NCBI GenBank assembly: GCA_947626845.1
Contig: CANQTW010000001.1
Coordinates: 62,001 to 126,000, forward strand
Origin: an uncultured Oscillospiraceae bacterium
GTDB taxonomy: Bacteria > Bacillota > Clostridia > Oscillospirales > Oscillospiraceae
DNA length: 64,000 nt
Reading direction: 5' to 3'
Shown here: in pieces, positions 13,484-56,314 of the stretch
How positions within the stretch are numbered: position 1 is the first letter of the stretch
Layout of the letters: each line of letters begins with the position of its first letter
Notes under the pieces: model-generated
The model's input: only the letters and a program-made list of their open reading frames with translations
Told to the model about the DNA's origin: nothing
Database searches by the model: none
Position numbers and translations under genes: made by a program

Positions 13484-13585
13484 GGGGCCCCATCGGGCCG
13501 CTGCCCGATGGGGAGAGGAGGAGCGAAGCCTGCGCCTGAGCCCGAATACTTGGAGGGCGAGGTTAAGCGGCTTCCGCGACGACGA
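13484..13585 (+). repeat. Dispersed hairpin element, copy 1
   Basis: Begins GGGGCCCC, then a perfect 11-bp hairpin (13488-13498 with 13503-13513), AGAGGAGGAGCGAAGCC, a central region, and ends GCGGCTTCCGCGACGACGA. From 13521 to 13585 it is identical to copy 2 at 15830-15933; the first hairpin arms differ completely. Oriented opposite to the flanking genes. Confidence 0.85.
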
Positions 13586-13608
13586 GCGTGCGCGCAGGGC
13601 GACGGCAG

Positions 13609-13649
13609 GGGGAAATTTCTGAATTTCGCAAAATTCGGAAATTTTCCCC
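13609..13649. other. Long A/T-rich hairpin next to element copy 1
   Basis: Arms 13609-13626 and 13631-13649 pair over about 18 bp with one bulged base and one G-T pair, loop CGCA. No T-tract follows on either strand, so it is unlikely to be a simple terminator. Confidence 0.6.
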
Positions 13650-13666
13650 ACACGTTCCCTTTGGCA

Positions 13667-13690
13667 TCGAAAGCCCTTTCGGGCTTTCGA
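13667..13690 (-). terminator. Hairpin just after tpiA
   Basis: Perfect 10-bp stem TCGAAAGCCC / GGGCTTTCGA with loop TTTC, ten bases past the tpiA stop and without a U-tract. It may protect or partly end the pgk-tpiA message. Confidence 0.45.
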
Positions 13691-13700
13691 GCCAGTTATT

Positions 13701-14474
13701 TTATTCCTGATTGGCGGCGTTGATGATGGCGGCAAACTTTTCGGGGACAAGGGAGGCCCCGCCGATGAGGCCGCCGTCGATGTCCGGCTGGGAGAGAAGC
13801 TCATAGGCGTTCTTCTCGTTCATGGAGCCGCCGTAGAGGATGGTGGTGGCGCGGGCGGTGCGGGCGCCATAGAGGCCGCGGATGATGGAGCGGATGGTGC
13901 GGTTGACCTCGTTTGCCTGCTCGGCGGTGGCGGTGTTGCCGGTGCCGATGGCCCAGATGGGCTCGTAGGCGATGATGACCTTCCTGATCTGCTCCTCGTT
14001 GACGCCGGCCAGGGCAGCGCGTACCTGATAGTTGATAAGGGACTCGGTGAGGCCAAGCTCCCTCTGACGGGCGCTCTCGCCCACGCAGATGATGGGCTGG
14101 AGGCCCAGCTCAAGGGCGGCCTTGACCTTCTCGTTGACGGTAAGATCTGTCTCGCCAAAATACTGACGGCGCTCGGAGTGGCCGATGATGACGTACTTGA
14201 CCTTCAGATCCCGGAGCATCTCGCCGGACACCTCGCCGGTGTACGCTCCCTTGGGGTGCTCGCTCATGTTCTGCGCGCCTACGGAGATCCGAGCCTCCTT
14301 GAGGTATTTCATCCCCAAGGGCAGGTCCACAAAGGGGGCGCAGATGACGGTCTCACACCAGCGGGCGCGGGGGACCAGGGTCTTCATCTCCTCCGCGAAC
14401 TCGCGGATCTCGGAGGGGAGTTTGTTCATCTTGAAGTTGCCGGCGATGACGGTCTTGCGGTATTTTCTGTTCAT
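13701..14474 (-). CDS. tpiA: Triose-phosphate isomerase
   Basis: Interconverts dihydroxyacetone phosphate and glyceraldehyde-3-phosphate. At 257 residues it is standard. GNFKMN carries the Asn/Lys active-site pair, IIGHSERR the catalytic histidine, AYEPIWAIGTG the catalytic glutamate, and ILYGGSMNEKNA plus DGGLIGGASL the phosphate-gripping loops. Start ATG 14474 lies 17 nt after the pgk stop with GGAGAGGG upstream, so the two are co-transcribed. Confidence 0.98.
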   Translation of the reverse strand: MNRKYRKTVIAGNFKMNKLPSEIREFAEEMKTLVPRARWCETVICAPFVDLPLGMKYLKEARISVGAQNMSEHPKGAYTGEVSGEMLRDLKVKYVIIGHSERRQYFGETDLTVNEKVKAALELGLQPIICVGESARQRELGLTESLINYQVRAALAGVNEEQIRKVIIAYEPIWAIGTGNTATAEQANEVNRTIRSIIRGLYGARTARATTILYGGSMNEKNAYELLSQPDIDGGLIGGASLVPEKFAAIINAANQE

Positions 14475-14491
14475 GACGCTCTGCCCTCTCC

Positions 14492-15772
14492 TTATTTGTC
14501 GAGTAAGCAGGCTACGCCGGGAAGCTCCTTGCCCTCCAGGAACTCAAGGGAGGCGCCGCCGCCGGTGGAGATGTGGGTGATCTTATCGGCAAAGCCCAGC
14601 TGCTCGCAGGCCGCGGCGGAGTCGCCGCCGCCGACGATGGAGATGCAGTCGGACTCGGCCAGCGCGCGGGCCACGGCGATAGTGCCGGCGGCCAGGGTGG
14701 GATTCTCGAAAACGCCCATGGGGCCGTTCCACACCACGGTCTTGGCCTCCATGACGGCCTTGGCGAAGATCTCGCGGGTCTTTTCGCCGATGTCCAGGCC
14801 CATCTTGTCGGCGGGGATGGCCTCACTGGCCACGGTCTCAACGGCAACAGGCCCGTCGATGGGATCAGGGAAGGAGGCGGCCACAACGGTGTCCACAGGC
14901 AGGAGGAGCTTGACGCCCTTTTCCTCGGCCTTGGCCATCATGTCCTTGCAGTAGTCCAGCTTGTCGGTGTCCAGCAGGGAGGTGCCGACGGTATAGCCCT
15001 TGGCGGCCATGAAGGTGTAGGCCATGCCGCCGCCGATGATGAGGGTATCGACCTTCTCAAGAAGATTGGAGATGACATTGAGCTTATCGGAGACCTTGGC
15101 GCCGCCCAGGATGGCGACGAAGGGACGGTCAGGATTGGCAAGGGCCTTGCCCATGACGCCCAGCTCCTTCTCGATGAGGAAGCCGGAGACGGCGGGCAGA
15201 TAGGCGGCGACGCCGGCGGTGGAGGCGTGGGCGCGATGGACGGCGCCGAAGGCGTCGGACACATAGACATCAGCCAGGCTGGCCAGCTCTTTGGCAAACT
15301 CCGGGTCATTCTTCGTCTCACCCTTATTGAAGCGGGTGTTCTGAAGAAGCATGATCTCACCGGGCTTCAGCGCGGCGGCCTTGGCCTTGACGTCGTCATT
15401 CACTACATTGATGTCGCCGGCCAGGATCACTGGCTTACCCAGAAGCTCGGAGAGACGCTTGGCCACGGGCTCCATGCACAGAGCCTCCAGGGACTTGCGC
15501 CACTTGGCCTCGGTCAGCTCCTCAGGGGCCTTGCCCTTCTCGGCCTGCTTCTTGGCCCACTTGTCAAAGCTGGGTTCGGGCTTGCCCAGATGGCTGCAGG
15601 CGATGACGGCGCAGCCCTGCTCCAGCAGATACTTGATGGTGGGGACAGCCGCCACGATGCGCTTGTCGCTGGTGATGACGCCCGCCTTCAGGGGGACGTT
15701 GAAGTCACAGCGAAGAAGGACCTTCTTGCCGGCAAGGTCAATGTCACGGACCGATTTCTTGTTGTAGTTCAT
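14492..15772 (-). CDS. pgk: Phosphoglycerate kinase
   Basis: Makes ATP from 1,3-bisphosphoglycerate. The 426-residue chain is about 30 longer than most bacterial forms because of an insert around residues 65-95 ([20 protein letters not shown]). Conserved features are [10 protein letters not shown], the SHLGKP loop, [11 protein letters not shown], the GGAKVSDKL nucleotide region, the WNGPMGVFE segment and the GGGDSAAA hinge near the C-terminus. Start ATG 15772. The leader upstream contains dispersed element copy 2 in the sense orientation. No gapA is present in this window. Confidence 0.97.
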
Positions 15773-15829
15773 GTCAATACTCCAATCCTAAAAAATTTTA
15801 TTGATAAACCCATAAAGGGAGAATGCGCA

Positions 15830-15933
15830 TCGTCGTCGCGGAAGCCGCTTAACCTCGCCCTCCAAGTATTCGGGCTCAGGCGCAGGCTTCGCTCCTTCTC
15901 TCCCCGCAAAATCTATGATTTTGCGGGGGCCCC
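15830..15933 (-). repeat. Dispersed hairpin element, copy 2
   Basis: Same order as copy 1 read on the minus strand: GGGGCCCC, a perfect 12-bp hairpin (15928-15917 with 15913-15902, loop ATA), AGAGAAGGAGCGAAGCC, central region, GCGGCTTCCGCGACGACGA. It lies between trmL and pgk in the sense direction. A decayed partial copy sharing GGAGCGAAG and GCCTGAGCC may sit just before it at about 15940-15989. Confidence 0.85.
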
Positions 15934-15989
15934 ATTTTCGCGTGAGACGTTTTACGGCTCAGGCGTTGTGCTCGTTCTTTCTTCGCTCC

Positions 15990-16475
15990 TTATTCCCCGG
16001 CCATGCTGCCGGTGCCGGAAAGCTCCGGGAAGCCCTGCTGCCGGAGGGCCTCGTAGCAGAGAACGGCCACGGAATTGGCAAGGTTGAGGCTCCTGGCGTC
16101 CTCCCGCATGGGGATGCGGACGCACCTGTCGCGGTAACGCTCCCGGAAAAACGCGGGAAGTCCCGCCGTCTCCTTGCCGAAAACCAGCCAGCACCCGTCG
16201 TCGTACCGGGCCTGGTGATAGGCTCTGGGGGCCTTGGTGGTGGCCAGCCACAGATCGTCCCCGCCGTGCTTTTGGAGGAACTCGTCAAGGCTCTCATAGA
16301 CCGTGATGTCCACCATGGGCCAGTAGTCCAGCCCCGCCCGTTTTACCGCCCTGTCGGAGATGTCGAAGCCCAGGGGCCGCACCAGATGCAGGCGTGAGCG
16401 GGTGGCGGCGCAGGTGCGGGCGATGTTGCCGCAATTCTGGGGGATCTCCGGCTCCACCAGCACGATGTTGATCAA
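15990..16475 (-). CDS. trmL: tRNA (cytidine/uridine-34 2'-O)-methyltransferase TrmL
   Basis: A SPOUT methyltransferase of 161 residues that 2'-O-methylates the wobble base of tRNA-Leu isoacceptors with S-adenosylmethionine. Start set at TTG 16475: the family begins with a short LNIVL-type strand (here INIVLVEPEIPQNCGNIAR), and AGAGG lies seven bases before it, whereas GTG 16484 overlaps the ribosome site. The trefoil-knot motifs are FGKETAGLP and RIPMREDARSLNLANSVAV. It precedes pgk and has its own promoter at 16502-16530. Confidence 0.92.
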   Translation of the reverse strand: MINIVLVEPEIPQNCGNIARTCAATRSRLHLVRPLGFDISDRAVKRAGLDYWPMVDITVYESLDEFLQKHGGDDLWLATTKAPRAYHQARYDDGCWLVFGKETAGLPAFFRERYRDRCVRIPMREDARSLNLANSVAVLCYEALRQQGFPELSGTGSMAGE

Positions 16476-16501
16476 AGCTATCACCTCTTGCCAGTATCCC
16501 T

Positions 16502-16530
16502 ATTTTATAACTTCCCGCGGGAGTTTTCAA
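16502..16530 (-). promoter_or_regulatory. Promoter of trmL
   Basis: Minus-strand TTGAAA (16530-16525), 17 nt, TAAAAT (16507-16502). The spacer contains the palindrome TCCCGCGGGA, a possible operator. Confidence 0.65.
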
Positions 16531-16637
16531 TATAAATCGTTAAAAATCTCTCAAACTTTTTTACTTTTGGCCATTTGGCGAAAGTGAGGCCGGAAACGGC
16601 GATCTATTTTGGGAAAATCCGCGATATTTCCCCGTGA

Positions 16638-16671
16638 AAAAATCCGCCCGTTTTCTTACGGGCGGATTTTT
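16638..16671 (-). terminator. Terminator of the LEA-like gene
   Basis: Thirteen-base-pair stem AAAAATCCGCCCG / CGGGCGGATTTTT with an 8-nt loop; U-run on either strand, so probably bidirectional. Confidence 0.85.
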
Positions 16672-16711
16672 CGGTCTGTCAAAAGCGCAAATCCGAGTTT
16701 TTCCGGCGGTC
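16672..16711 (-). repeat. Pre-terminator module, copy C
   Basis: Read on the minus strand it runs AGACCGCCGGAAAAAC to GCTTTTGACAGACCG and joins the stop codon of the LEA-like gene (16712) to its terminator hairpin. Its last bases resemble the IS end at 23002. Confidence 0.6.
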
Positions 16712-17257
16712 TTACTCCTGCTTGCCGTTCATGGCGTCAACGGCGGCGTCGAACTCACGCTTGGCCTCGCTGGCGGCCTCCTCGGCGGCGTTGGCGGCCT
16801 CGGCGGCGGTCTGCTCCACGGTATGCTCGATCTCGTCCACCACCTGGTCCGCGGCCTCGGCGGCGGGGGCCTCGGCCTCCGGCTCCTCCTGGGCGGAGAG
16901 GCTCTCGATCTCGGCCTGCTTGGCCTCGATGGCCTCCAAGACGGTCTCGATGGCGGCGGTGGTCTCGGCAAAGTCGGGATCGGTGTGGCCGGCGTACTTT
17001 TCGTAGTAGAGCTTGCCCAGCTCGGTATACTTGTCTTTCAGGCCGCTGCGGGCGGAGGCGATCTCCGCGTTGAGCTTCGCCTTTTTCCCGGTGGTCTGGG
17101 CCTTGTCCGCCACGTCCTTGGCGGCGTCGGACACCTTGCCGGCCACATCCTTGGCGGCGTCCCCGGCCTTGCCGGCCATATCCTTGGCCAGCTCGGCGGC
17201 TTTGCCGGCGGCATGGGTGATTTTTTCCTTCAGGTCATCAAAATTAAAGCTTGCCAT
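16712..17257 (-). CDS. LEA/apolipoprotein-like helical repeat protein
   Basis: 181 residues, almost entirely helical. Residues about 12-50 carry 11-residue amphipathic repeats (AGKAGDAAKDVAGK, VSDAAKDVADKA) as in group 3 LEA and YtxH-type proteins; the centre (about 60-110) resembles a coiled coil with KYTELGKLYYEKYAGH; the end is an acidic Ala/Glu-rich helix. No signal peptide. Function unknown, possibly envelope or stress related. Start ATG 17257 follows GGAGGT with seven bases between. The frame is open upstream to ATG 17386, inside the lgt end, which would add 43 residues (MDEQELDEALEPLRELLRSR first); I consider the short form more likely because of the ribosome site. Confidence 0.75.
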   Translation of the reverse strand: MASFNFDDLKEKITHAAGKAAELAKDMAGKAGDAAKDVAGKVSDAAKDVADKAQTTGKKAKLNAEIASARSGLKDKYTELGKLYYEKYAGHTDPDFAETTAAIETVLEAIEAKQAEIESLSAQEEPEAEAPAAEAADQVVDEIEHTVEQTAAEAANAAEEAASEAKREFDAAVDAMNGKQE

Positions 17258-17378
17258 TAGTTTTACCTCCATTTGATTTTCATTTTTTGTTTTGACGGTT
17301 ATATGTCTGTTAAACGAGACAGCCTTGCGCGACCTCAACAGCTCCCGCAGCGGCTCCAGCGCCTCGTCAAGCTCCTGT

Positions 17379-18338
17379 TCATCCATGATCCTCACCGTTC
17401 CCGTCCCCCTCCGTCTCCTCCGGCGCGGGCGCCGCAGGCTCCGGCGCCTCCGGGCTTTCGGCCTCGGTCTCTTCAGCCGCGGCCAGGGCGGCCTTTTGGC
17501 GGTTCACGAACATCTTTTCCGGGTCCGGACGGCGAACAAATCTATTATACAGCAAAAGCGCCGCGGATGCAAGGAAAAGAATGAAGGACACTAACTGGCT
17601 GACGCGGATGCCCGTGTCAAAGAGGTAGAGGCTGTCGGTGCGCAGGCCCTCGACGAGCATCCTCCCGAAGCCGTACCAGCCCAGATACCACAGGAACACC
17701 TGCCCGTCGTACCGGCGGCGCTTTTTGGAGAGGAAATGCATCAGCGTAAAGCCGATAAGGTTCCACACCGACTCATAGAGGAAGGTGGGGTGGACGGCGT
17801 AGGCGGTGCCGTTGGGGAGGGTCAGCACCATGCGGCAGAAGATGTCCGTCTGGTAGCCGAAGGCCTCGCGGTTCATGAAGTTGCCCCACCGGCCCAGAGT
17901 CTGTCCGATGATGAAGCCGAAGCAGACCATATCCAGGAAGGCCAGCAGGCTCAGCTTCTTCCACCGGCAGTAGATGACCGTGGCCAGCACCGCGCCGATG
18001 ATCACGCCGTACATGCCCAGTCCCCCCTGCCAGATGTACAGGACGGAGATGGGATCGTCCGCGAAAAGGTCCCAGTGGAACAGGCAGAAATAGACGCGCG
18101 CGCCGATGATGGCCAGGGGGACGCCCAGGATGATCACGTCAAAGACGTTGTCCGGCGTCAGGCCGAACTCCTTGGAGCGCCTGGCGCAGTACAGCACCGC
18201 CAGCAGAAAGCCCGTGGCGATGATGACGCCGTACCAGTGGACGGTCAGCGGCCCGATCCGAATGACCGGCGAGGGGTTTATGGACCAGTCCCCCAGCATG
18301 GGGAAGGAGATGGATGCTTCAGGGTATGCTGTTTTCAT
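17379..18338 (-). CDS. lgt: Prolipoprotein diacylglyceryl transferase
   Basis: Transfers diacylglycerol from phosphatidylglycerol to the lipobox cysteine of prolipoproteins in the membrane; two lipoproteins in this window (5104, 7726) would be substrates. The 319-residue protein has about seven membrane helices and the family signature GRWGNFMNREAFG at about residues 150-162, plus HWYGVIIATGF and HPTFLYES. The C-terminal ~45 residues are an unusual Ala/Glu/Pro-rich cytosolic tail. Start ATG 18338 overlaps the YmfH stop in an ATGA junction, so translation is coupled. Confidence 0.95.
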   Translation of the reverse strand: MKTAYPEASISFPMLGDWSINPSPVIRIGPLTVHWYGVIIATGFLLAVLYCARRSKEFGLTPDNVFDVIILGVPLAIIGARVYFCLFHWDLFADDPISVLYIWQGGLGMYGVIIGAVLATVIYCRWKKLSLLAFLDMVCFGFIIGQTLGRWGNFMNREAFGYQTDIFCRMVLTLPNGTAYAVHPTFLYESVWNLIGFTLMHFLSKKRRRYDGQVFLWYLGWYGFGRMLVEGLRTDSLYLFDTGIRVSQLVSFILFLASAALLLYNRFVRRPDPEKMFVNRQKAALAAAEETEAESPEAPEPAAPAPEETEGDGNGEDHG

Positions 18339-19621
18339 GTGGATTGACCTTTCTTTGTGATGATGGAGATGGCGCATCTGTCCACGGTCATGTACTCGGC
18401 CAGGAAGGCCCTGACGTCCTCCGCCGTTACCGTGTTCAGCACCTCCACGGTGTTGAAATAATCGTAGCCGGAAAAGCCTCCGGCGGCCACGTTGCAGCAG
18501 ATGTTCTCAAAGGAGCCGGCTGCCCGGAGCGCCGCGCCCAGGGCCGTCTTTTTCCTGCGGGCGAAAAAGGCCGGGTCGATGCCGCGGGCGGCCAGGTCCG
18601 CCGCCTCCTCCAGCACCCGCATACACACATATTCCGGCTTCTGGGTCTCCCCGCCGAAGGACAGCTGGGAGTACCCGGCGGTGTTTTCAAAGTCGTAGCC
18701 GAAGGTCTCGTTGATGGCTCCGGCGTCGTAAAGCTCCCGGTAAAGGGGCGAGGCGGAGCCTAAGAGGGTGGACAGCGCCAGCGTGGCGGTCAGCTCGAAT
18801 TTAACGCTCTCCCGGCCCAGGAGCCCGCTCTTTGTCTTGGCGCCCGCCAGGAAAAGGGGCGCGCCCACGTCCATGGCCCGCTGATCGCTCATCTTCAGGG
18901 GCAGGGGCCCTTCGGGCTTTTCCGGTACCCGCACCGGCATGGGGGCGAAGGTCTCCGGCATCAGCTCCTCCGCCGTCTCCAGCACCCGCTTGGGGTCCTG
19001 GTCGCCCACCACCACCAGGGCCATGTTCCGGGGGGTGTAAAACGCCCTGTGGGCGGAGCGGAGCGTCTGGGCGGTGATGGCCGCGATGCTCTCCTCCGTT
19101 CCCGCCACGCTCTCCCGTAGGGCGGGGGCGGCATAGAGGCACCGCAGGAGCGCGTAGTATACAGCGTCCTCCGGGTCGTCCTCCATCATGCGGATCTCCT
19201 GGGCGATGATGGCCCGCTCCCGGTCCACGCCCTCGCCGGTAAAATAGGGCGTGGAGACGAATTGCAGCAGGAGCCGGAGATTTTCAAAAAAGGAGTCCGT
19301 ACACTCAAAATGATACGCCGTCATATCCGGCGAGGTGAAGGCGTTGGCGTTGGCGCCCCGCTCGGAGAGGGTGGTCAGGGCGTTGGCCTGGCCCTCCACC
19401 TCAAAGAGCCTGTGCTCCACAAAATGGGCGGTGCCGGAGGGGGTGGAAAACCGCTCCCCGGAGAGGGTAAATTCCCTGTCCGCGCCGCCGTAGTTGACGG
19501 CCAGGAACGCCATGGATTTGCGAAAACCGGGCTTCGGCACCACCGTCACCCGCAGTCCGGACTCCGTCTCGGCGGTAAAGGCGGTCTCTCCCACCAGGGC
19601 GTATTCCTTCTTTTTAAGCAT
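18335..19621 (-). CDS. M16-family zinc peptidase, YmfH-like
   Basis: 428 residues resembling the catalytic half of the YmfF/YmfH pair, which in Bacillus is linked to elongation factor P modification. The inverted zinc motif HFVEH with downstream Glu is intact, so it should be active. Start ATG 19621 (MLKKKEYALVGETAF) is used; the frame upstream is open but reads through the YmfF end. It overlaps ymfF by 8 nt and lgt by 4 nt. Two-domain M16 architecture with a GYDFENTAGYSQL-type second half. Confidence 0.88.
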   Translation of the reverse strand: MLKKKEYALVGETAFTAETESGLRVTVVPKPGFRKSMAFLAVNYGGADREFTLSGERFSTPSGTAHFVEHRLFEVEGQANALTTLSERGANANAFTSPDMTAYHFECTDSFFENLRLLLQFVSTPYFTGEGVDRERAIIAQEIRMMEDDPEDAVYYALLRCLYAAPALRESVAGTEESIAAITAQTLRSAHRAFYTPRNMALVVVGDQDPKRVLETAEELMPETFAPMPVRVPEKPEGPLPLKMSDQRAMDVGAPLFLAGAKTKSGLLGRESVKFELTATLALSTLLGSASPLYRELYDAGAINETFGYDFENTAGYSQLSFGGETQKPEYVCMRVLEEAADLAARGIDPAFFARRKKTALGAALRAAGSFENICCNVAAGGFSGYDYFNTVEVLNTVTAEDVRAFLAEYMTVDRCAISIITKKGQST

Positions 19622-20912
19622 CTCCGTCCGCCTCCGCCGTGAGAAAATAGGTATGCGTGAGCTTCGCCTCCGACGCGACGGCGGCCACATCCTCCGCCGT
19701 GACCAGCTCGCAAAGGGCGGCGAATTCCTCCGGCCCCGGCCGGCTGCCCAGGATGGCCCTGTCCAGATACAGTCCCTCCAGCCCCGTAGGCTCGTCCAGG
19801 GAGGCCAGCAGGGAGCCGATGACGCCCCGCTTGGCGGCCTCCAACTCCCAGGGCTCGATAAAGCCGTTGGCCAGAGAGGCCAGCTGGGAGAGGATCTCGT
19901 CGTGGACCTCATCGAACTTGTCCGGGTCGATCCCGGCGGAGACGAACATCGCCCCCTTGTTCCTGTCCACGGTGGAGCCGGCGTAGTAGCACAGGGCCAT
20001 CCGCTCCCGGACGTTCAGGAAGAGGCGTGAGGTGGCGGAGCCGCCGAAAAGGGCGTTGAACACCGCCAGGGCGGCGTACCGGGGCTCCTCCTGGGAGGCG
20101 GCCCGGTCCAGCCGGAAGCCCATCACCAGCCTGCCCTGGGTCACGTCCATGGTCTCCCGAAGGATCTTCTCCTTCACGTCCCCAAAGCCCGTCCGCACCT
20201 GGGTCGTGGGCATGGCAAACGCTCCGGTACGGGGCAGGGAGGCCAGCGCCTCCCGGAGCACACGCGCCACGCGCTCAGGCTCCTCCGCGCCGCAGTAGAA
20301 AAGCTCCAGCGGCGCCGTGGCGATCAGCTCCTTATAATATTTCGTCAGCGCGTAGGGGGAGATGGCGGCGGCGTCCGCCAGCGTCCCCAGCTTGCTGACG
20401 CCGTAGCTCTCGCCCCGGAACATGGCCTCCACCAGCTTTGTGGAGGCATAGGCGCGCTTGTCGTTGATCTCGGCGTTGATGTCGTCTATGAGGTTCTGCC
20501 GCTCGGAGCGCACATAGTCGCCTCTCAGCCGCCCGCCGCGGGTGGCCGGATTCAGCAGCAGCTCCCCCAAAAGGTACGCCGTCCCGGAGAGGATATCGGG
20601 CCTCCCCGGCAGGAAGGCCGCGTCGGGGAAATCGGCGCAGAAGCCCAGCGCCGCCACCTCGCCTCTCTTGCGGATGGCCGGCTCGATCCGCGCCCCGTAA
20701 AGCTCGTCCATGGCGGCGGCCAGGGACTCGCTGTCGGGACAGCGGGCGGTCCCCCGGCGCAGGACATAGGGCAGGATGGCGTTCAAAGACGCCGTTTTTT
20801 TCGTGTGCGGGGCCAAAAGCGTGGCGGACAGGCAGCCGGTCTTGAACCGGTCATCCCACACCGCCGTGAGCCTGACGCCCCGCGTCAGCGGTATCTCAAA
20901 TACGCCCTTCAA
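19614..20912 (-). CDS. M16-family non-catalytic partner, YmfF-like
   Basis: 432 residues of M16 fold whose N-terminal half lacks an HXXEH motif (SLNAILPYVLRRGT in its place), as expected for the inactive partner. The C-terminal half is well kept (QGRLVMGFRL, FNALFGGSATSRLFLNVRE, LCYYAGSTVD). Start set at TTG 20912 (LKGVFEIPLTRGVRL), which follows GGGGGTGAGG; an ATG further upstream at 20963 has no ribosome site and adds atypical residues. First gene of ymfF-ymfH-lgt-LEA-like, with a promoter at 20948-20976. Confidence 0.85.
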   Translation of the reverse strand: MKGVFEIPLTRGVRLTAVWDDRFKTGCLSATLLAPHTKKTASLNAILPYVLRRGTARCPDSESLAAAMDELYGARIEPAIRKRGEVAALGFCADFPDAAFLPGRPDILSGTAYLLGELLLNPATRGGRLRGDYVRSERQNLIDDINAEINDKRAYASTKLVEAMFRGESYGVSKLGTLADAAAISPYALTKYYKELIATAPLELFYCGAEEPERVARVLREALASLPRTGAFAMPTTQVRTGFGDVKEKILRETMDVTQGRLVMGFRLDRAASQEEPRYAALAVFNALFGGSATSRLFLNVRERMALCYYAGSTVDRNKGAMFVSAGIDPDKFDEVHDEILSQLASLANGFIEPWELEAAKRGVIGSLLASLDEPTGLEGLYLDRAILGSRPGPEEFAALCELVTAEDVAAVASEAKLTHTYFLTAEADGDA

Positions 20913-20947
20913 CGCCTCACCCCCTGTAAAATGCCGATATTTAGTAC

Positions 20948-20976
20948 AGTATATCATAGTATTCCGGAAAAAACAA
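20948..20976 (-). promoter_or_regulatory. Promoter of the ymfF operon
   Basis: Minus-strand TATACT (20953-20948) with TTGTTT (20976-20971) 17 nt upstream; the -35 is weak. Confidence 0.5.
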
Positions 20977-21077
20977 CACAATCCAAGGAAAAAATCTCCC
21001 CGTGGAGGGGAATTTTCGGAAATCCGACGCGCCCGCGGCCTTTTGCCCTTCTCCGGCATATACTGTCCTGAGAACAA

Positions 21078-21111
21078 CGGCGTTCACCATCGTGTGGACG
21101 CCGCATTTTTT
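21078..21111 (+). promoter_or_regulatory. Terminator-like hairpin immediately before the asnB ribosome site
   Basis: CGGCGTTCAC (21078-21087) pairs with GTGGACGCCG (21094-21103) over 10 bp with one G-U, loop of 6, then CATTTTTT. The U-run ends one base before GGAGG of asnB, so it can act as an intrinsic terminator in the leader, i.e. an attenuator. Confidence 0.5.
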
Positions 21112-27594: not shown

Positions 27595-27597
27595 CCC

Positions 27598-49176: not shown

Positions 49177-49194
49177 TCTCTCCCCACTGTGCGT

Positions 49195-49223
49195 ATTATA
49201 CCACATGTCGAAGCAAATGTCAA
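49195..49223 (-). promoter_or_regulatory. Perfect sigma-A promoter pointing back into xpaC
   Basis: Minus-strand TTGACA (49223-49218), 17 nt, TATAAT (49200-49195), with an A/T-only block upstream. It would start transcription near 49188 and run antisense through xpaC. Confidence 0.6.
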
Positions 49224-49298
49224 GCATTATTTTAATTATTTTTTATTATTTTTTTAGCCGCGCAAAACGGCTGAGACAAACAGAAAGGGAGTAATGAC

Positions 49299-50480
49299 AT
49301 GAACGAGCAGGAATACGTACCCACCTTGACCTTTGATTCCACCCCCGCAGCCCCTGTGACCCCGGCGGACCAGCAGGCAGCCGCCCAGGCCGCCGCCGCG
49401 CAGGCCGCCGCGGAGCCGGAGGCGCCCGTAGTCACCGCCACCCAGCATGAGGAGAGCCAGCTTACGGAGGCGGAGCTGAAGGCGGTGGAGGAGTTCTCCA
49501 AGAAGATCGACATCACCGATTCCAACGCCGTTTTACAGTACGGCGCGGCCAGCCAGAAGAACATCGCCGACTTCTCCGGCACCACCCTGCAGAACGTGCG
49601 CACCAAGGACATGGGCGAGGTGGGCGACATGCTCTCCGACCTGGTGGTGGAGCTGAAGGGCTTCAACTACGACGAGGAGGAGAAGCGGGGCCTCTTCGGC
49701 TTCAAGCGCAAGATGGAGAAGCAGATCGCGTCCCTCAAGGCCCAGTATGACAAGGCGGAGGTGAACGTGGACAAGATCGCCGGAATGCTGGAGCAGCACC
49801 AGCTCACCCTCCTGAAGGACGTGGCGACCCTGGATAAGATGTACGACCTGAACCTGGCCTATTATAAAGAGCTGACCATGTACATCCTCGCCGGCAAGAA
49901 GAAGCTGAAGGAGTGCGAGGAGGTGGAGCTTCCCAAGCTCCAGGAGAAGGCCAGGACCTCCGGCCTGCCTGAGGACGCCCAGGCGGTGAACGACTACCAG
50001 AACATGATCACCCGCTTTGACAAGAAGCTCCACGACCTGGAGCTGACGAGGATGATCTCCGTTCAGATGTCCCCCCAGATCCGCCTGATCCAGAATAACG
50101 ACACCCTGATGGTAGAAAAGATACAGACGTCCCTGGTGAACACCATCCCCCTGTGGAAGAGCCAGATGGTGCTGGCTCTGGGGCAGGCCCACTCCCAGCA
50201 AGCCATGCAGGCCCAGCGGGAGGTCACCAACATGACCAACGAGCTTCTCCGGAAGAACGCCGAGAAGCTGAAGATGGGCTCCGTGGAGATCGCCCGCGAG
50301 TCCGAGCGGGGCATCGTGGATATCGAGACCCTGAAGGCCACCAACCAGTCCCTCATCGAGACGCTGGAGGAGGTGCGCACCATCCAGGTGGAGGGCGCCG
50401 CCAAGCGCCGTCAGGCGGAGGCCGAGCTGGGCAAGATCGAGTCCGACCTGAAGGCCAAGCTCCTGGAGATCAATAAATGA
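49299..50480 (+). CDS. telA: TelA-family toxic anion resistance protein
   Basis: 393 residues, mostly helical, with the TelA body at about 55-390 (FSKKIDITDSNAVLQYG, ELTRMISVQMSPQIRLIQ, NTIPLWKSQMVLALGQ). The N-terminal 50 residues are Ala/Pro-rich. The family was named for tellurite resistance; actual roles in envelope stress are not settled. Start ATG 49299 follows AAAGGGAG. Pairs with xpaC upstream and overlaps the LemA-like gene by 4 nt. Confidence 0.92.
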   Translation: MNEQEYVPTLTFDSTPAAPVTPADQQAAAQAAAAQAAAEPEAPVVTATQHEESQLTEAELKAVEEFSKKIDITDSNAVLQYGAASQKNIADFSGTTLQNVRTKDMGEVGDMLSDLVVELKGFNYDEEEKRGLFGFKRKMEKQIASLKAQYDKAEVNVDKIAGMLEQHQLTLLKDVATLDKMYDLNLAYYKELTMYILAGKKKLKECEEVELPKLQEKARTSGLPEDAQAVNDYQNMITRFDKKLHDLELTRMISVQMSPQIRLIQNNDTLMVEKIQTSLVNTIPLWKSQMVLALGQAHSQQAMQAQREVTNMTNELLRKNAEKLKMGSVEIARESERGIVDIETLKATNQSLIETLEEVRTIQVEGAAKRRQAEAELGKIESDLKAKLLEINK

Positions 50481-51076
50481 GCGCCGCCCAGGCAAAGGCG
50501 ACCCACCCCATCCCGGAGGGCGCCGCCCTTCTCAAAAACCGACGCTTCGCCGCCGGCATCTTGGCGGCGGCGGTGATCCTCGGCGTCCCGCTGGGCTCCG
50601 CCAGGAGCCTCCGGCACGCCGTCAACCGGGTGGAGAAGCAGTTCTTCACCGGCGTGGAGGGCCGCGGGGCCATCGCCGACTACCTGAAGGACGCCGTTGA
50701 CGCCGCCCTGGGCCTTGTGACCGTGGGCGCCAAATACGACGCCGCCCTGGAGGAGACGGGGGAGCTGCGGTTTGACCGGTCCTGCCTCCTGGACGCCATG
50801 GAGGGGAAGAATGTCGCCGAATACGCCGCCGCCAACGCCCTGGTGGTCAAGTCCTTCGGGGCGCTGAAGGATAAGCTCTGGAGCCTGGAGCTTTCGGAGC
50901 AGGACGCCGCCGACGTGGAGTATTACGCCAACCAGTTCGAGGGCGCCCAGGGGGCCGTCAACCACGCCGGCTACAACGAGGCGGTAGAGGACTTTACGGA
51001 AAAGACCTATGACCGGTTCCCGGCCAGCCTGTTTGCCGGTCTTATGGGCGTGGAACCGCCTGAAAAGTTTGAATAA
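50477..51076 (+). CDS. LemA-like protein
   Basis: 199 residues with one membrane helix near 27-45 (AAGILAAAVILGVPLGSA) and a helical bundle. The C-terminal pattern GYNEAVEDFTEKTYDRFPASLFAGLMG matches the LemA motif YNxxVxxYNxxixxFPxxxxAxxxG in spacing, though the N-terminal half is divergent. LemA and TPM-domain proteins often occur together, as here. Function unknown. The ATGA overlap with telA shows coupling. Confidence 0.75.
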   Translation: MSAAQAKATHPIPEGAALLKNRRFAAGILAAAVILGVPLGSARSLRHAVNRVEKQFFTGVEGRGAIADYLKDAVDAALGLVTVGAKYDAALEETGELRFDRSCLLDAMEGKNVAEYAAANALVVKSFGALKDKLWSLELSEQDAADVEYYANQFEGAQGAVNHAGYNEAVEDFTEKTYDRFPASLFAGLMGVEPPEKFE

Positions 51077-51096
51077 TCAGTAATGAGGTGTATGCC

Positions 51097-52050
51097 TTGA
51101 AAAAAGCTTTATCCCTGGCGCTTCTCCTGATTTTGTGCCTGTGCCTTACCGTCCCCGCCCTGGCGCTGACCCAGGGGGACAGCTTCTACGTCACCGACGA
51201 GACGGGCTCTCTGAGCCAGGACACGGTGGACCAGGTGGTGCGGATCAACGGGGAGCTGGAGGAGAACTATGAGGCCCACATCGTCGTGGCGTTTGTGGAC
51301 TATTTCGGTGACAGGTACGCCGACGAGTACGCGGTGAGTCTCTTCAACGAGTGGAGCCTCTCGCCCCGCGGGATGCTCCTGGTGGTCTCCCCCAAGGAGG
51401 GCCGCGGCGGCATGACGGTAGGGTCGGAGATCACGGACGTCTTTACCTCCGACGATATGAACAGCTATCTGGACCGGTACTTCTGGGACGATTTTGACAA
51501 GGGGAAGTACGACAAGGCCGTGACGAGGCTGGTGGAGAAGCTCTCCGACTGGTATGAGGACTACTACGGCCCCGTCTCCGGCGGCAGTCAGGCCGCGCCC
51601 GGCGGAAGCTCCGCCTCCGGAGCGCTGGCGGGACTGGGCATTTTAGGCGTCATTCTGGGCTTTATCCTCAGAAATATTTTCGTCATCCTGCTCTTCGTAG
51701 TGATCCTCGTCCTGATCGTTTTGGCGGACAGGCGGAGATACAGAAGCTATTACATGTCCATCGGAATGCCGATCCCACGGTATTACCCCTGGTATATGTT
51801 CACCTCCCGTCCCTACCGGGCCTACCGGCGGCCCAGGCCCCCGCGGCCTCCCGCGCCGCCCCGCGGCGGCGGGTACAGGCCCCCGACGAGACCTGCCTCC
51901 CGGCCCGCGCCGCGTCCCTCGCGTCCCTCCCGCCCCAGCGGCGGCGGACATTCCGGCGGGAGCTTCGGAGGCCGGGGCGGAAGTTCCGGCGGCTTCGGCG
52001 GACATTCCGGCGGCGGCCGCAGCGGCGGAAGCTTCGGCGGGAGGCGGTAA
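51097..52050 (+). CDS. TPM-domain (TLP18.3/Psb32/MOLO-1) membrane protein with Gly-rich tail
   Basis: 317 residues. Signal peptide LKKALSLALLLILCLCLTVPALA, TPM domain about 28-160 (YVTDETGSLSQDTVDQVVRI, RGMLLVVSPKEGRGGMTVG), one membrane helix about 185-212, then an Arg/Pro-rich segment and a repetitive Gly-Ser-Phe tail (GGHSGGSFGGRGG). Start TTG 51097 is taken because GAGGTG lies six bases before it; the GTG of that site is less likely. Last gene of the xpaC operon. Confidence 0.85.
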   Translation: MKKALSLALLLILCLCLTVPALALTQGDSFYVTDETGSLSQDTVDQVVRINGELEENYEAHIVVAFVDYFGDRYADEYAVSLFNEWSLSPRGMLLVVSPKEGRGGMTVGSEITDVFTSDDMNSYLDRYFWDDFDKGKYDKAVTRLVEKLSDWYEDYYGPVSGGSQAAPGGSSASGALAGLGILGVILGFILRNIFVILLFVVILVLIVLADRRRYRSYYMSIGMPIPRYYPWYMFTSRPYRAYRRPRPPRPPAPPRGGGYRPPTRPASRPAPRPSRPSRPSGGGHSGGSFGGRGGSSGGFGGHSGGGRSGGSFGGRR

Positions 52051-52057
52051 AAATCAA

Positions 52058-52103
52058 GGGGCTATGAAAAGCCGAGCTTATATCTGCTCTTTTTCACAGC
52101 CCC
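52058..52103 (+). terminator. Hairpin after the TPM gene
   Basis: GGGGCTATGAAAAG pairs with CTTTTTCACAGCCCC (one mismatch, one extra T) across a 17-nt loop, immediately after the stop. Confidence 0.55.
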
Positions 52104-52144
52104 GTCATATTCAACGGCGGCGAAGCCGCAACCTTTTTGATCGG

Positions 52145-52210
52145 CGGCGTTTCGGGAATTCGACGGCGCGTCGGGCCAACTCCGGCGGCGACTTCGGAGG
52201 AAGAAAATAA
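52145..52210 (+). pseudogene. Remnant of a second TPM-type gene 3' end
   Basis: Frame ending TAA at 52208-52210 encodes ...ANSGGDFGGRK, like the GGSFGGRR end of the gene just upstream, and both are followed by TAAAAATCAAG plus a hairpin. No start or upstream domain remains, so it looks like the leftover of a tandem duplication. Confidence 0.5.
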
Positions 52211-52216
52211 AAATCA

Positions 52217-52246
52217 AGAGGGCAGGATTTTTCCTGTCCTCTTTTT
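52217..52246 (+). terminator. Terminator after the TPM remnant
   Basis: AGAGGGCAGGA / TCCTGTCCTCT (one G-U), loop TTTT, then TTTTT. Confidence 0.85.
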
Positions 52247-52254
52247 ATGATTCT

Positions 52255-52869
52255 TTATATTTCCTTCAGCTCCTGGTCGGTATCCAGGATGAAGTGGTCG
52301 CAGCCGTTGATGACGGTGGTGGTCCGGTAGCGGCTGACCTGGGGGAGGTTGACGCCGTAGCTGCGGTGGATATGGCCGTGGATGAAATACCGGGGGCGGT
52401 ATTTTTCGATCAGCTCCTGAAAGCACTCAAAGCCCCGATGGGTCAGGGTGTCGAAGTCGTTGACGCCCCGTATGGGGGCGTGGGCCACGATGATGTCCAC
52501 CCCGCCGGCGCGGCGGAGCTTCCAGCGCAGCTTGTGGATGCGCTTTTCCATCTGGCGCTCGTTGTACATGCTCCTCCCGGTCTTTTTGTACCGGTAGGAG
52601 CCGCCCAGGCCCAGGATGCGCAGGCCGTTGACGGTGATGATGGTGTCCTCCAGGCACTCGCACCCCTCCGGGGGCTTGTCGATGAGGGCGTCATCGTGGT
52701 TGCCCCGCACATACAAAAGGGGGCAGTGGGCCATGGTCACCAGAAATTCCAGGTAGTTACGGCTCAGATCCCCGCAGGAGATGATGAGGTCAAATTCGTC
52801 CAGCTTGCCGGGGCGGTAGTAGTCGTAATAGACCGGGGCAGGATCGTCGGATACGACCAGTATCTTCAT
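52255..52869 (-). CDS. Calcineurin-like metallophosphoesterase
   Basis: 204 residues. Phosphoesterase motifs in order: VVSDDPAPVYY at the N-terminus (the usual DxH is altered, Asp-Asp-Pro), ISCGDLSRNYL, YVRGNHDD, IVAHAPIRG, and GHIHRSYG. The metal ligands of motifs II-V are present; the substrate is unknown. Start ATG 52869 lies one base after the stop of the BMP-domain gene, so they form a two-gene operon. Confidence 0.85.
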   Translation of the reverse strand: MKILVVSDDPAPVYYDYYRPGKLDEFDLIISCGDLSRNYLEFLVTMAHCPLLYVRGNHDDALIDKPPEGCECLEDTIITVNGLRILGLGGSYRYKKTGRSMYNERQMEKRIHKLRWKLRRAGGVDIIVAHAPIRGVNDFDTLTHRGFECFQELIEKYRPRYFIHGHIHRSYGVNLPQVSRYRTTTVINGCDHFILDTDQELKEI

Positions 52870-52870
52870 A

Positions 52871-54817
52871 TCACGCTTCCCCTCCGGCTTCCTTCTCCGG
52901 CTTTTTGGCGCTCTCCACGCCCACGCTCTCCACGGTGGCCTTGCCGGTGGGAGAAAGCTCCTCATAGACGGGGATGCGGCCCTCCACGTTCTCCACCAGG
53001 TAGTCCATGGCGGCGATCTCCTCCATCTCCAGGGGCTTGCCCGCCTCGCCCACGGTGGAGCCGCCCTGGATATGGATGGGGCCGATGAAGGGGTCGACGA
53101 TCCAGCGGGAGATGCCGGCGCGCATGTAGCCCGCCAGGCGGCGGGTGCTCTCAGGCACCTCGTCGGTGAGCATCACGTCCACCGCCCCGGCGGACATGCC
53201 CCAGTAGTAGTTGATGGCCTTGCTGGAGCTTTCATATTCGGCCTGAAGGGTGCCGTTGAACACCTGGCGCAAAAGGCCCTCGTAGTAGACGCCCCAGTTC
53301 CAGATGGGGGCGGCGATGAGCTTTTTCGTGTCGCCGTTTATGTAGGAGAGGCCCAGGGCCTGGCCCGGCTCGTAGAGGCGGGCGTTGTCCATGGAGCTGA
53401 TGAGGGTGATGCCGTTTTTCGTAAGCCTGGACATGGCGGCGCTCCGTCCGCCCACGCTGGACCACTCCAGTTGGACCCTGGCGCGGGGATTGACCATGCG
53501 GGCGCCCAGGGCGAAGGCATTGATGCCGGCGATCTGCCCGAAGATGGGGTAGTCGCACACGTAGCCGATCCGCCCGTTCTCCGCCAGCGCCCCGGCCACC
53601 GCGCCGATGATGAATTTGGCCTCGTACATCCGGGCGTAGTAGGTGCGCACATAGCGGTGGGATTTGTTGATGGAGCAGTTCATGATCAGCTTGTCGGGGT
53701 TTTCCACCGCCGTCCGCAGAGAGGCGGGCAGCAGCACCGGAGAGGTGGTGAAGATCACGTCGCACAGCTCCTTCACCGCCTGGTTGATGGTCTCCTGGGG
53801 CCCCTCGTCCATGGCGTTGAAGTAGGAGACGGTCTCGATCCTGTCCCCGAAGCGCCTGTCCACATGCTGACGGCCCTGCTCATGGCCGTAGGTCCAGCCG
53901 GAGGTCACCGGGTCCTTGTCGTGGACAAAGCCCACCTTCAGGCCGCGGACGGCGTTGGTGTTGATGATGACCTTGGATAAAAGGCCGCCCTTGGGCTCCA
54001 TGGGGGCGGGCTTCAGCTCGATGGGCTCCTTCTCCTGCTGGAGCATCAGCTCCTCCCACAGCCTGGACACGGACTTTCTCAGCTCCGTAGGCCCCTGCTC
54101 GCTGAGGTCCTCGAAGGAGTAGACCTTCATGTACGCCAAAAGGGCGTCGCCCACGGCGGAGGGGGGCATGGTCTTGCCGGCCCTGTCCTCGAAGGCCTCC
54201 CGGAAGTAGTGGTAGACCGTGGAGAATTTGCGCCGCTCCTCCTCCGTCCAGTAGGCCTCCGGATCGCGGCCCAGGAGCTTCAGAAGCTCCTTGTAGCCGC
54301 CCCGCTTGCTGAACTCCAGGAAGTTGACCTTGGTGTATTTGTAAAATTCCACATACTCGTAGTATATATCCGTCTCGATGCCCGTCCCGCGTTCCGGGAG
54401 GACGCGGGTCACCTCGGCCTGGATGCTCACGGCGCCGAAGAACTTGAGGACGCTGACGCGCTTGTTGCCCTCCTGGACATAGTAGCGGTTCATGTATTCG
54501 TAGACCTTGATGGGGTCCCGAATGCCGTCCCGCAGATGGCTTTCGCACAGGGCGATCCACTTGCCCGCGAACTCGCTGGTCTCGGACAGCACCGGCATGA
54601 AATTCCTGGCGAAGCTGTTGGTACGGCCACGGGTCTTGGTGCCCACGATGAACTCCACGGGGATGGACACGGTGCCCAGCTTGATCCCCAGGTTCACCCG
54701 CTCGTCGGCCACAAAATCGTCCAGCACCGGCAGGACGGGGCTGATGCCCTTGGCCACGCAGGCGCGGTATTCCTTCTGGCCAAGCTTCATGGCCTCTCTG
54801 TAATACTGATCAGACAT
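52871..54817 (-). CDS. Cytosolic BMP (PnrA-like) domain protein with a ParB-like N-terminal segment
   Basis: 648 residues and no signal peptide or lipobox. About 285-590 is a BMP/PnrA nucleoside-binding domain (KVGFVHDKDPVTSGWTYGHE, NCSINKSHRYVRTYYARMYE, GRIGYVCDYPIFGQIAGINAFALGARM) normally found in lipoproteins that feed purine ABC transporters. Residues about 70-150 resemble the ParB/sulfiredoxin nucleotide-binding motif (PIKVYEYMNRYYVQEGNKR). So it is probably an intracellular ligand sensor rather than a transporter subunit; the ligand is unproven. Start ATG 54817 follows AAGGAG. Confidence 0.8.
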   Translation of the reverse strand: MSDQYYREAMKLGQKEYRACVAKGISPVLPVLDDFVADERVNLGIKLGTVSIPVEFIVGTKTRGRTNSFARNFMPVLSETSEFAGKWIALCESHLRDGIRDPIKVYEYMNRYYVQEGNKRVSVLKFFGAVSIQAEVTRVLPERGTGIETDIYYEYVEFYKYTKVNFLEFSKRGGYKELLKLLGRDPEAYWTEEERRKFSTVYHYFREAFEDRAGKTMPPSAVGDALLAYMKVYSFEDLSEQGPTELRKSVSRLWEELMLQQEKEPIELKPAPMEPKGGLLSKVIINTNAVRGLKVGFVHDKDPVTSGWTYGHEQGRQHVDRRFGDRIETVSYFNAMDEGPQETINQAVKELCDVIFTTSPVLLPASLRTAVENPDKLIMNCSINKSHRYVRTYYARMYEAKFIIGAVAGALAENGRIGYVCDYPIFGQIAGINAFALGARMVNPRARVQLEWSSVGGRSAAMSRLTKNGITLISSMDNARLYEPGQALGLSYINGDTKKLIAAPIWNWGVYYEGLLRQVFNGTLQAEYESSSKAINYYWGMSAGAVDVMLTDEVPESTRRLAGYMRAGISRWIVDPFIGPIHIQGGSTVGEAGKPLEMEEIAAMDYLVENVEGRIPVYEELSPTGKATVESVGVESAKKPEKEAGGEA

Positions 54818-54899
54818 GGGAAAACTCCTTTTCGCTGTTGTCAGCGCCATTCTATCACGGATGAGCGGAAGTGGCAAGATGGTTTACGAAAATTTAAAA

Positions 54900-54922
54900 C
54901 GGGCCGGCTTTCAGCCGGCCCG
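54900..54922 (-). terminator. icd terminator
   Basis: Perfect stem CGGGCCGGCT / AGCCGGCCCG, loop of 3, then TTTTAAATTTT on the minus strand. Confidence 0.85.
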
Positions 54923-54963
54923 CCAGTTTGTAAAAAAGCTCCAATTCATTTTTCCGGCGGCAT
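54923..54963 (-). repeat. Pre-terminator module, copy D
   Basis: Minus-strand ATGCCGCCGGAAAAAT ... GCTTTTTTACAAACTGG lies 20 nt after the icd stop and abuts the terminator hairpin. Confidence 0.6.
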
Positions 54964-54983
54964 GTACGTCGGAAAAAACCGTC

Positions 54984-56183
54984 TTACGCCTCCAGCTGCT
55001 CCCTGACGGCGCGGATGAAGCCGGCAGTGGTGACCTTTTTCACGTCGGGATCGGGGCACAGGAGGGCCAGATCGCCGGTCATGACGCCGGCGTTGATGGT
55101 GTCCAGCACGGCCTTTTCCAGTCTGTCCGCGAAGGCGGACAGCTCCCCGTTCCCGTCCAGCTCCCCGCGCTTTCTGAGGGCGCCGGACCAGGCGAAGATG
55201 GTGGCCACGGGGTTGGTGGAGGTCTGCTCGCCCTTTAAGTACCTGTAATAGTGCCGCGTCACCGTGCCGTGGGCGGCCTCGTACTCGAAATTCCCGTCGG
55301 GACTGACCAGCACCGAGGTCATCATGGCCAAGGAGCCGAAGGCGGTGGAGACCATGTCGCTCATCACGTCGCCGTCGTAGTTCTTGCAGGCCCAGATGAA
55401 CCCGCCCTTGCTGCGGATGACCCTGGCCACGGCGTCGTCGATGAGGGTGTAGAAGTACTCGATCCCCGCGGCGGCGAATTTCTCCGCGTATTCCGCGTCG
55501 AAGATGCGCTGGAAGATGAATTTGAAGGTCTGGTCGTACTGCTTGGAGATGGTGTCCTTGGTGGAGAACCAGAGGTCCTGCCGGACGGAGAGGGCGTACT
55601 CAAAGCAGCTGCGGGCAAAGGCCTCGATGGAGGAGTCCTTGTTGAACATGGACTGCAAAACGCCGGGGCACTCGTAATCGTACACCGTCTGGCGGAAGCT
55701 CTCGCCCTTCTCGCCGGTGAAGACAAGCTCCGCCTTGCCGGGGCCGGGGACCCGGTACTCCGTGGCCTTGTAAACGTCGCCGTAGGCGTGGCGGGCGATG
55801 GTGATTGGCTTCTCCCAGGTGCTGACCACGGGCTTGATGCGGCTGGTCATGATGGGCGCACGGAAGACCGTGCCGTCCAGGGCGGCGCGGATGGTGGCGT
55901 TGGGACTTTTCCACATCTCGTGGAGCTTATACTCCTCCACCCGCTGGGCGTTGGGGGTGATGGTGGCGCACTTGACGGCCACGTGGAGCCTTTTGGCGGC
56001 CTCGGCGGCGTCCACGGTCACCTGGTCGCGGGTGGCGTCGCGGCTGGGAAGGCCCAGGTCGTAATATTCCGTGTTCAGCTCCACGAAGGGACTTAGAAGC
56101 TCATCCTTGATCTCCTGCCAGATGATCCTGGTCATCTCGTCCCCGTCCATCTCCACGATGGGGTTCATTTTTATCTTTGCCAT
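54984..56183 (-). CDS. icd: NADP-dependent isocitrate dehydrogenase, eukaryote-like (type II)
   Basis: Oxidative decarboxylation of isocitrate to 2-oxoglutarate. 399 residues that align in style with the homodimeric eukaryotic/type II group: MAKIKMNPIVEMDGDEMTRIIW, KCATITPNAQRVEEY, SPNATIRAALDGTVFR (substrate serine/asparagine), TIARHAYGDVY, NYDGDVMSDM (metal Asp), EAAHGTVTRHYY (NADP site). Start ATG 56183 with GAGG seven bases upstream. It follows acn on the same strand; the 107-nt gap holds dispersed element copy 3. Confidence 0.95.
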   Translation of the reverse strand: MAKIKMNPIVEMDGDEMTRIIWQEIKDELLSPFVELNTEYYDLGLPSRDATRDQVTVDAAEAAKRLHVAVKCATITPNAQRVEEYKLHEMWKSPNATIRAALDGTVFRAPIMTSRIKPVVSTWEKPITIARHAYGDVYKATEYRVPGPGKAELVFTGEKGESFRQTVYDYECPGVLQSMFNKDSSIEAFARSCFEYALSVRQDLWFSTKDTISKQYDQTFKFIFQRIFDAEYAEKFAAAGIEYFYTLIDDAVARVIRSKGGFIWACKNYDGDVMSDMVSTAFGSLAMMTSVLVSPDGNFEYEAAHGTVTRHYYRYLKGEQTSTNPVATIFAWSGALRKRGELDGNGELSAFADRLEKAVLDTINAGVMTGDLALLCPDPDVKKVTTAGFIRAVREQLEA

Positions 56184-56209
56184 ATCTATACCTCGTTCAT
56201 TCAAGTTTT

Positions 56210-56314
56210 GGGGCCCCGCGCGATCCCACTCGCGTGGGGAGAGGAGGAGCGAAGCCGGCGCGTGAGCCGCAACGCGCGCGTTGCGGGGAGTTATCGCGGC
56301 TTCCGCGACGACGA
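56210..56314 (+). repeat. Dispersed hairpin element, copy 3
   Basis: GGGGCCCC, hairpin CCCCGCGCGA / TCGCGTGGGG (56214-56223 with 56230-56239), AGAGGAGGAGCGAAGCC, a second hairpin CCGCAACGCG / CGCGTTGCGG that replaces the CCGA/TTGG hairpin of copies 1-2, and GCGGCTTCCGCGACGACGA. It overlaps the last eight codons of acn on the opposite strand. Confidence 0.8.

Follow-up and report, generated by a model that had tools for sequence, protein, structure and literature searches.

What kind of sequence keeps its fold while its letters change, and how do copies of it come to lie dispersed between genes? The question is raised by an element found in three copies in a 64,000-nucleotide stretch of contig CANQTW010000001.1 from an uncultured Oscillospiraceae bacterium (assembly GCA_947626845.1), hereafter the window. 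An initial annotation had placed these copies at 13484–13585 (plus strand), 15830–15933 (minus strand) and 56210–56314 (plus strand) and named the motifs they share, and positions and motifs alike held on re-reading. Its proposal of a conserved folded strand is supported by the wider family examined here, in which the fold is conserved through compensatory change. We read the family, with modest confidence, as a non-autonomous dispersed mobile element that behaves like repetitive extragenic palindromes (REPs), REP doublets (REPINs) or bcr repeats and whose plus strand is recognised in a folded, single-stranded form.

The folded unit and its copies in the window

The unit is asymmetric, about 102–106 bp long, and made of two hairpins, the first (P1) followed by a composite of a G.A zipper, a helix (P2) and an apical hairpin (P3). 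Read along the plus strand, it runs from GGGG through P1, a single A, GAGGAGGA, the 5′ side of P2, a short asymmetric loop and one half of a tandem G.A step into the variable apical P3, and returns through the other half of that step and the 3′ side of P2, which carries one bulge, to GACGACGA. Below P2, the strands 5′-GAGGAGGA and GACGACGA-3′ oppose each other in the succession A.G, G.A, G-C, A.G, G.A, G-C. This zipper of tandem G.A steps, within which the Watson-Crick pair covaries, is absent from the initial annotation.

Among the 38 seed sequences of our covariance model, 35–38 retain each of the five inner G.A column pairs and 16 have G.A at the outermost column pair of the zipper; in 2, both sides of the Watson-Crick pair between the G.A steps are exchanged, giving C-G in place of G-C. 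The same middle pair is standard in 223 of 225 distinct elements (201 G-C, 13 C-G, 7 G-U and 2 A-U), against a mean of 196.9 and a maximum of 205 in shuffles, in a set picked by a regular expression that fixes the G.A letters and leaves this pair alone free. Across 100 distinct sequences aligned to the model, the two G.A, A.G steps are kept in 88 and 94, and at least 6 have two Watson-Crick pairs in place of the inner step. In the same alignment, standard pairs fill 89.9% of the cells (63.7% when shuffled), 860 cells are changed on both sides (247 in shuffles), and sliding the partner columns by 1–3 positions lowers the covariation score from 0.577 to at most 0.097. These values are upper bounds, because the alignment is biased towards the model and model sequences came in part from the same genomes. 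G.U cells outnumber A.C cells (172 vs 64, or 128 vs 64 with one column pair removed), an excess that favours the plus strand as the folded form. The pairing, zipper and G.U tests do not choose between RNA and single-stranded DNA (ssDNA).

The three window copies match the model with E-values of 1.7e-21, 1.7e-19 and 6.5e-17, values that come from training members, as all three are among its 38 sequences; the next window match has an E-value of 0.49. The right-hand motif, allowing up to 3 mismatches, occurs 4 times in the window against 0.42 expected, while the left-hand motif, allowing up to 2, occurs 3 times against 3.42 expected and is alone not unusual. Fold z-scores are −3.0, −4.1 and −0.8 for copies 1, 2 and 3, so that copy 3 alone is unremarkable for its own composition.

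Copy 1 (102 bp) lies between tpiA (13701–14474, minus strand) and gpmI (11928–13454, minus strand), antisense to both. Its P1 (13488–13513) has arms at 13488–13498 and 13503–13513 (CCCCATCGGGC/GCCCGATGGGG), the two sides of its zipper lie at 13515–13522 and 13578–13585, P2 pairs 13523–13530 with 13569–13577, one C being bulged, and P3 (13540–13558) is framed by the tandem G.A step of 13538–13539 with 13559–13560, all on the plus strand. Copy 2 (104 bp) lies in sense orientation 57 bp ahead of the start of pgk (14492–15772, minus strand) and after a trmL-like gene, with P1 on the minus strand at 15902–15928 (arms 15917–15928 and 15902–15913, CCCCGCAAAATC/GATTTTGCGGGG). Just upstream of it, at 15955–15990 on the minus strand, GGAGCGAAG...GCCTGAGCC looks like a decayed piece of another copy. 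Copy 3 (105 bp) lies antisense between icd (54984–56183, minus strand) and acn (56291–58525, minus strand), with P1 at 56214–56239 (arms 56214–56223 and 56230–56239, CCCCGCGCGA/TCGCGTGGGG) and P3 at 56267–56286 (arms 56267–56274 and 56279–56286), both on the plus strand. Read on the minus strand, 56291–56314 encode the last residues of the aconitase-like protein together with its stop codon, and this C-terminus is element-derived. We take the neighbouring genes to encode Pgk, TpiA, GpmI, a TrmL-like protein, isocitrate dehydrogenase and aconitase from reading their translations, without a family search.

The arms of the first hairpin had been described as perfectly complementary in each copy, which is the case for copies 1 and 2 and slightly overstates copy 3, where one pair is G.U; that the inner hairpin of copy 3 is different yet complementary is confirmed. 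By eye, no U-run follows P1 on either strand, and an intrinsic terminator was rejected as a candidate.

Spread of the family and its fixed sites

The covariance-model search suggested in the initial annotation recovered further copies in the genome and its relatives, with complementarity kept. In the source genome (2.58 Mb), the model matches 91 times at E ≤ 0.1, and 75 of these matches reach at least 70 bits. A blastn search with copy 1 against the same genome gives 68 matches, arm-only ones counted; inspected by eye, they include none that encloses a gene between its hairpins, as an autonomous form would. Of 34 genomes of the genus, 29 have matches at E ≤ 1e-4, and copy numbers per genome range from 0 to 81 when at most 117 candidates are scored in each. 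In a sample of the class, matches at E ≤ 1e-5 with stricter filters are found in 22 of 391 genomes and 18 of 222 genera, the 22 taking in the source genome (G000) and one congener and the copy counts being capped by the 10 candidates scored per genome. A pattern scan over one genome per species found at least 116 stretches, 113 of which (77/80 and 36/36) match the model at E ≤ 0.01; the loci listed are labelled mostly Oscillospiraceae, Ruminococcus or Clostridia. Cultured hosts among the matches listed include Pseudoflavonifractor phocaeensis (An858), Oscillibacter valericigenes (An411), Sellimonas caecigallum and Flavonifractor plautii. The pattern is also present in 32 viral contigs, and blastn against phage and plasmid records gave no match. 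One 47-bit match lies on a contig labelled Paludibacteraceae (L076, JAKSNJ010000004.1), by transfer or mis-binning. A subfamily (L068, L082, L092, L112, L140, L143 and others) keeps an apical CCCAGC..GCGGG in P1 while its outer P1 arms vary with complementarity.

At the gathering thresholds of Rfam 15, there are no matches in the window, the element goes unmatched in 20 further loci, and a permissive search (E ≤ 10) of 13440–16000 gives below-threshold matches only. In open-licence literature searched by topic and by sequence string, no description of the element turned up, and the family is apparently undescribed so far.

Two of the window sites could be compared between filled and empty states within the genus. 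At the icd|acn site of copy 3, the element is present in 7 of 29 loci (G000, G011, G018, G022, G004, G009 and G024), and a single old insertion is likely, as the seven carriers have a common site-specific subtype. Any two of their sequences differ in 10–46 columns. Of 238 cells, 213 are paired (shuffles average 83.7% and reach at most 87.0%), and both partners have changed in 9 of 34 pairs. At one pair of P2, two carriers have C-G, four have U-A, and G011 has a C.A mismatch. Two inner-stem pairs of the model are paired in 1 of the 7 sequences and one P3 pair in none, and the inner part of the model is unfit for this subtype, whose register, read by eye, seems shifted. Comparison of filled and empty flanks by eye revealed no target duplication. 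The aconitase tails read MNWYSSSRKPR or MNWYASSRKSR, among others, at filled sites and MNWYAAQKK, MNWYASHKK or MNWYSANRKKG at empty ones, so that the element provides the C-terminus of aconitase in several species. At the trmL|pgk site of copy 2, the element is present in 5 of 30 loci (2 loci being too short to tell), and G019 and G004 hold a remnant resembling GGGGCCCC or GGGGTCTC. Here 148 of 164 cells are paired and 17 of 34 pairs are changed on both sides, in a test that leaves out two of the seven alignment rows, which come from other sites.

Compensated differences at fixed sites, including the C.A of G011 that stands between C-G and U-A, are what would be expected of the main rival explanation, a class of structured RNA that acts after read-through transcription, in processing, stability or protein binding, and is selected site by site, with dispersal secondary. 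The elaborate non-canonical parts of the fold also favour it, and so does the exact abutment of some copies to the ends of tRNA, tmRNA and 23S rRNA genes. Inspection of 26 class loci showed the 3′ end of the element, in convergent orientation, within one base of the 3′ end of tRNA-Met (L320), tRNA-Ala (L323), tRNA-Val (L333) and tmRNA (L327, L337), and at L329, whose flanks are identical to those of L336, it abuts the 5′ end of a 23S rRNA in sense orientation. In the source genome, copies lie at or nearly at tRNA-Gln and tRNA-Arg (L225) and two bases off tRNA-Met (L245), and one copy ends where tmRNA starts (L239). Copies at L231 (G000:C28:19618) and L236 (G000:C27:11417, 12806) are fused with tRNA 3′-end sequence, and a tRNA-Cys called by ARAGORN runs across one of them. 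L312, L317, L319 and L332 look, on reading of their sequences without a family search, like parts of integrative and conjugative elements.

Against an RNA whose dispersal is secondary speak the range of 0–81 copies within one genus, flanks that share no promoter-like sequence beyond a weak A/T lean, and antisense copies that are as frequent as sense ones: in tandem gaps we count 23 antisense and 19 sense, with no clear orientation bias. On balance, we judge this explanation rather unlikely.

Placement, module exchange and the search for a mover

Copies are intergenic and prefer gene 3′ ends. None of 86 copies (of the 91 matches, after a score cut) lies inside a gene called with our own gene caller, trained on the window, and the 77 two-sided copies divide into 29 convergent, 42 tandem and 6 divergent gaps, against 6, 16 and 7 in a small control of window gaps of at least 20 bases. 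The REP-like dispersal in mixed orientation that had been proposed is supported. The GC skew of the window is weak and changes sign, and orientation relative to replication was dropped on that ground. Left flanks lean to A/T, with A at −3 in 54% of 152 clusters, and no target duplication was seen in flanks compared by eye.

Some copies are found inside the loops of other palindromic repeats, and three kinds inside the P3 loop of another copy. IS1397-type elements insert into palindrome loops; as a general rule for the present family this was rejected, the effect over independent flank clusters being absent (3/34 vs 8.7% in the control) or weak (48/119 vs 29%). Copies at G000:C1:51034, C16:8165, C8:77144 and C1:30006 are nested in the P3 loop of a partly decayed copy, and two palindromic families (TTGTCGCACAA... 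and GTCCAGAGGGGG...; L253, L254 and paralogous loci) are seen both empty and with the element in their loop. Many source-genome copies with the 3′ flank GTAGGGGC stand directly beside a GTAG-type repeat, before or after it, as composite units.

The copies also exchange parts. Copies 1 and 2 are identical in their last 67 bases and have unrelated P1 hairpins, while G022 and G012 carry the same GCAAAATC arm at the copy 2 site, with other right parts; copy 2 therefore combines a P1 owned by its site with a right part common with copy 1. Across the source genome, the P1 types ATCGGGC and GCCGAAC are each found with both P2 types, CGAACA as well as CCAAGC, and likewise with two types of P3, combinations that require recombination or gene conversion (allele conflicts that are frame variants of one allele being discounted). 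Kept pairing with unlike arms among the repeats of one genome is thus not, alone, proof of fast compensatory evolution, and the ‘fully different arms’ of the initial annotation mostly reflect whole-module exchange between copies, with compensated change seen in addition at the fixed sites. Such mixing, copy 2 included, speaks for an explanation in which a mutational process (quasi-palindrome correction, template switching or gene conversion), and not function or mobility, maintains the pairing. As this leaves unexplained both the retention of the G.A steps and their joint replacement by Watson-Crick pairs, we consider it improbable.

Who moves the element was asked of three kinds of genes. Copies lie within about 1.5 kb of 1 of the 30 Y1 loci of the genus and at none of the 8 TnpB and 25 IS110 loci tested. 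The suggested search for a RAYT-like (REP-associated tyrosine transposase-like) gene did find one in the source genome (L063, region G000:C12:30486-30773), without a supported link to the element; palindromes of the form GGGCCGCC...GGCGGCCC lie within its reading frame and seem to be another repeat inserted in frame. That gene, the GTAG-type repeats of the same genome and a weak correlation of Y1 count with copy number (Spearman 0.38, p 0.025) would suit an ordinary RAYT-mobilised REP or REPIN, but the element bears no GTAG tag, adjacency is lacking and 5 of the 17 genomes with at least 20 copies have no detected Y1 gene, so that the RAYT link is not supported, RAYT or IS200 was rejected as the mover, and this origin is very improbable. 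TnpB was rejected as well, with any match in 7 of 34 genomes and none in the source genome. Least probable is a miniature derivative of an IS110-type element, with structured end RNA and no inverted repeats, as IS110 matches do correlate with copy number (Spearman 0.70, or 0.46 after genome size, in related genomes of which the larger are richer in both) but 4 of the 17 high-copy genomes fall below the IS110 cut-off and none of the 25 IS110 loci carries the element; IS110, rejected as the mover, remains a lead.

We return to the non-autonomous mobile element. The variation in copy number within the genus, the filled and empty sites, the mixed modules, the intergenic placement and the kept fold together indicate that the family is very probably mobile, and we hold with good confidence that the folded plus strand is the form recognised; we lean only slightly to ssDNA over RNA as that form, and involvement of an HUH-type enzyme is a tentative suggestion at best. 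An enzyme supplied in trans would bind the folded strand, with the zipper (5′ GGAGGA against 3′ GACGACGA) placed where IS200/IS605 and RAYT enzymes have their guide and cleavage site; insertion would proceed without target duplication, and gene conversion would afterwards swap P1, P2 and P3 among copies. Several findings weigh against this account. No mobilising gene was found, the Y1, TnpB and IS110 loci being essentially without adjacent copies; 66 copies are present in G005, where neither Y1, TnpB nor IS110 was detected; movement was never directly observed; pairing kept at an old fixed site exceeds what an inert insertion needs; and strand-specific ssDNA transposition might give a bias, where sense and antisense copies in tandem gaps are in balance.

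A broader possibility, to which we assign a low probability, is a class-wide structured RNA of Clostridia built around the G.A zipper that spreads and is also selected for function after landing. Jointly with it, and no less doubtful, the element could be a mobile processing or regulatory module in operons and at tRNA, tmRNA and 23S ends, with a binding or mobilising protein of its own. In any case, abundant gut Clostridia gain a REP-like family whose distinctive fold, hundreds of natural variants and pairs of filled and empty sites allow a direct search for whatever moves or binds it; should the fold act as RNA, a widespread RNA class would be missing from Rfam. What makes the family worth following is its G.A zipper, its spread across the class and, at the fixed sites, its compensated divergence.

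Comparison with known systems

Miniature elements derived from IS200/IS605 have hairpins near both ends and make no target duplication. The present element is like them in its hairpins, in showing no duplication by eye and in having a sequence 5′ of a hairpin that faces one 3′ of it, but no TnpA or TnpB gene was found with its ends. In the account of PMC8266576, IS200/IS605 elements follow a rule that links a guide to the cleavage site. As to the strand-specific insertion 3′ of a fixed short target expected of an IS605-type element, we see by eye no duplication, and the left flank only leans to A/T. Nor is the element a classical miniature inverted-repeat transposable element (MITE), as GGGGCCCC and GACGACGA are not mutual inverted repeats and no duplication is seen at icd|acn.

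REPs tagged with CGTC also resemble the element in some respects. As set out in the relevant parts of Di Nocera (2013; PMC3733652), they carry CGTC at one end, are intergenic and near gene 3′ ends, have no known transposase and include families that lie inside palindromes; in the seed alignment, our element has GACG at its 3′ end, the reverse complement of CGTC, and read backwards it starts with TCGTCGTC. They differ in size and build, being described there as single hairpins of 20–40 bp with an 8–9 bp stem, a loop of 4–5 bases and a short tail, where the element has 102–106 bp, two hairpins and a G.A zipper, and in the main text of that paper ‘Firmicutes’ and ‘Clostridi’ occur nowhere.

With REPINs, in the descriptions given in PMC3116915 and PMC8266576, the element has in common a comparable length, a middle that is variable but self-complementary, compensatory changes, intergenic position and high copy number. 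Unlike GTAG REPs and REPINs as portrayed there, it is not a symmetrical doublet and has no RAYT beside its copies, and the conserved feet of its hairpins are GGAGGAGC and GACGACGA in place of a GTAG tag. The bcr repeats of the Bacillus cereus group are, in the portions of PMC3446304 that treat them, dispersed and intergenic, some MITE-like and some with conserved structure, and about half of them are transcribed; their hosts are other, and the likeness is one of description. The family thus fails the defining tests of GTAG REPs, of CGTC REPs in size and build, of IS605-derived elements and of MITEs, and in its behaviour it is like REPs, REPINs or bcr repeats.

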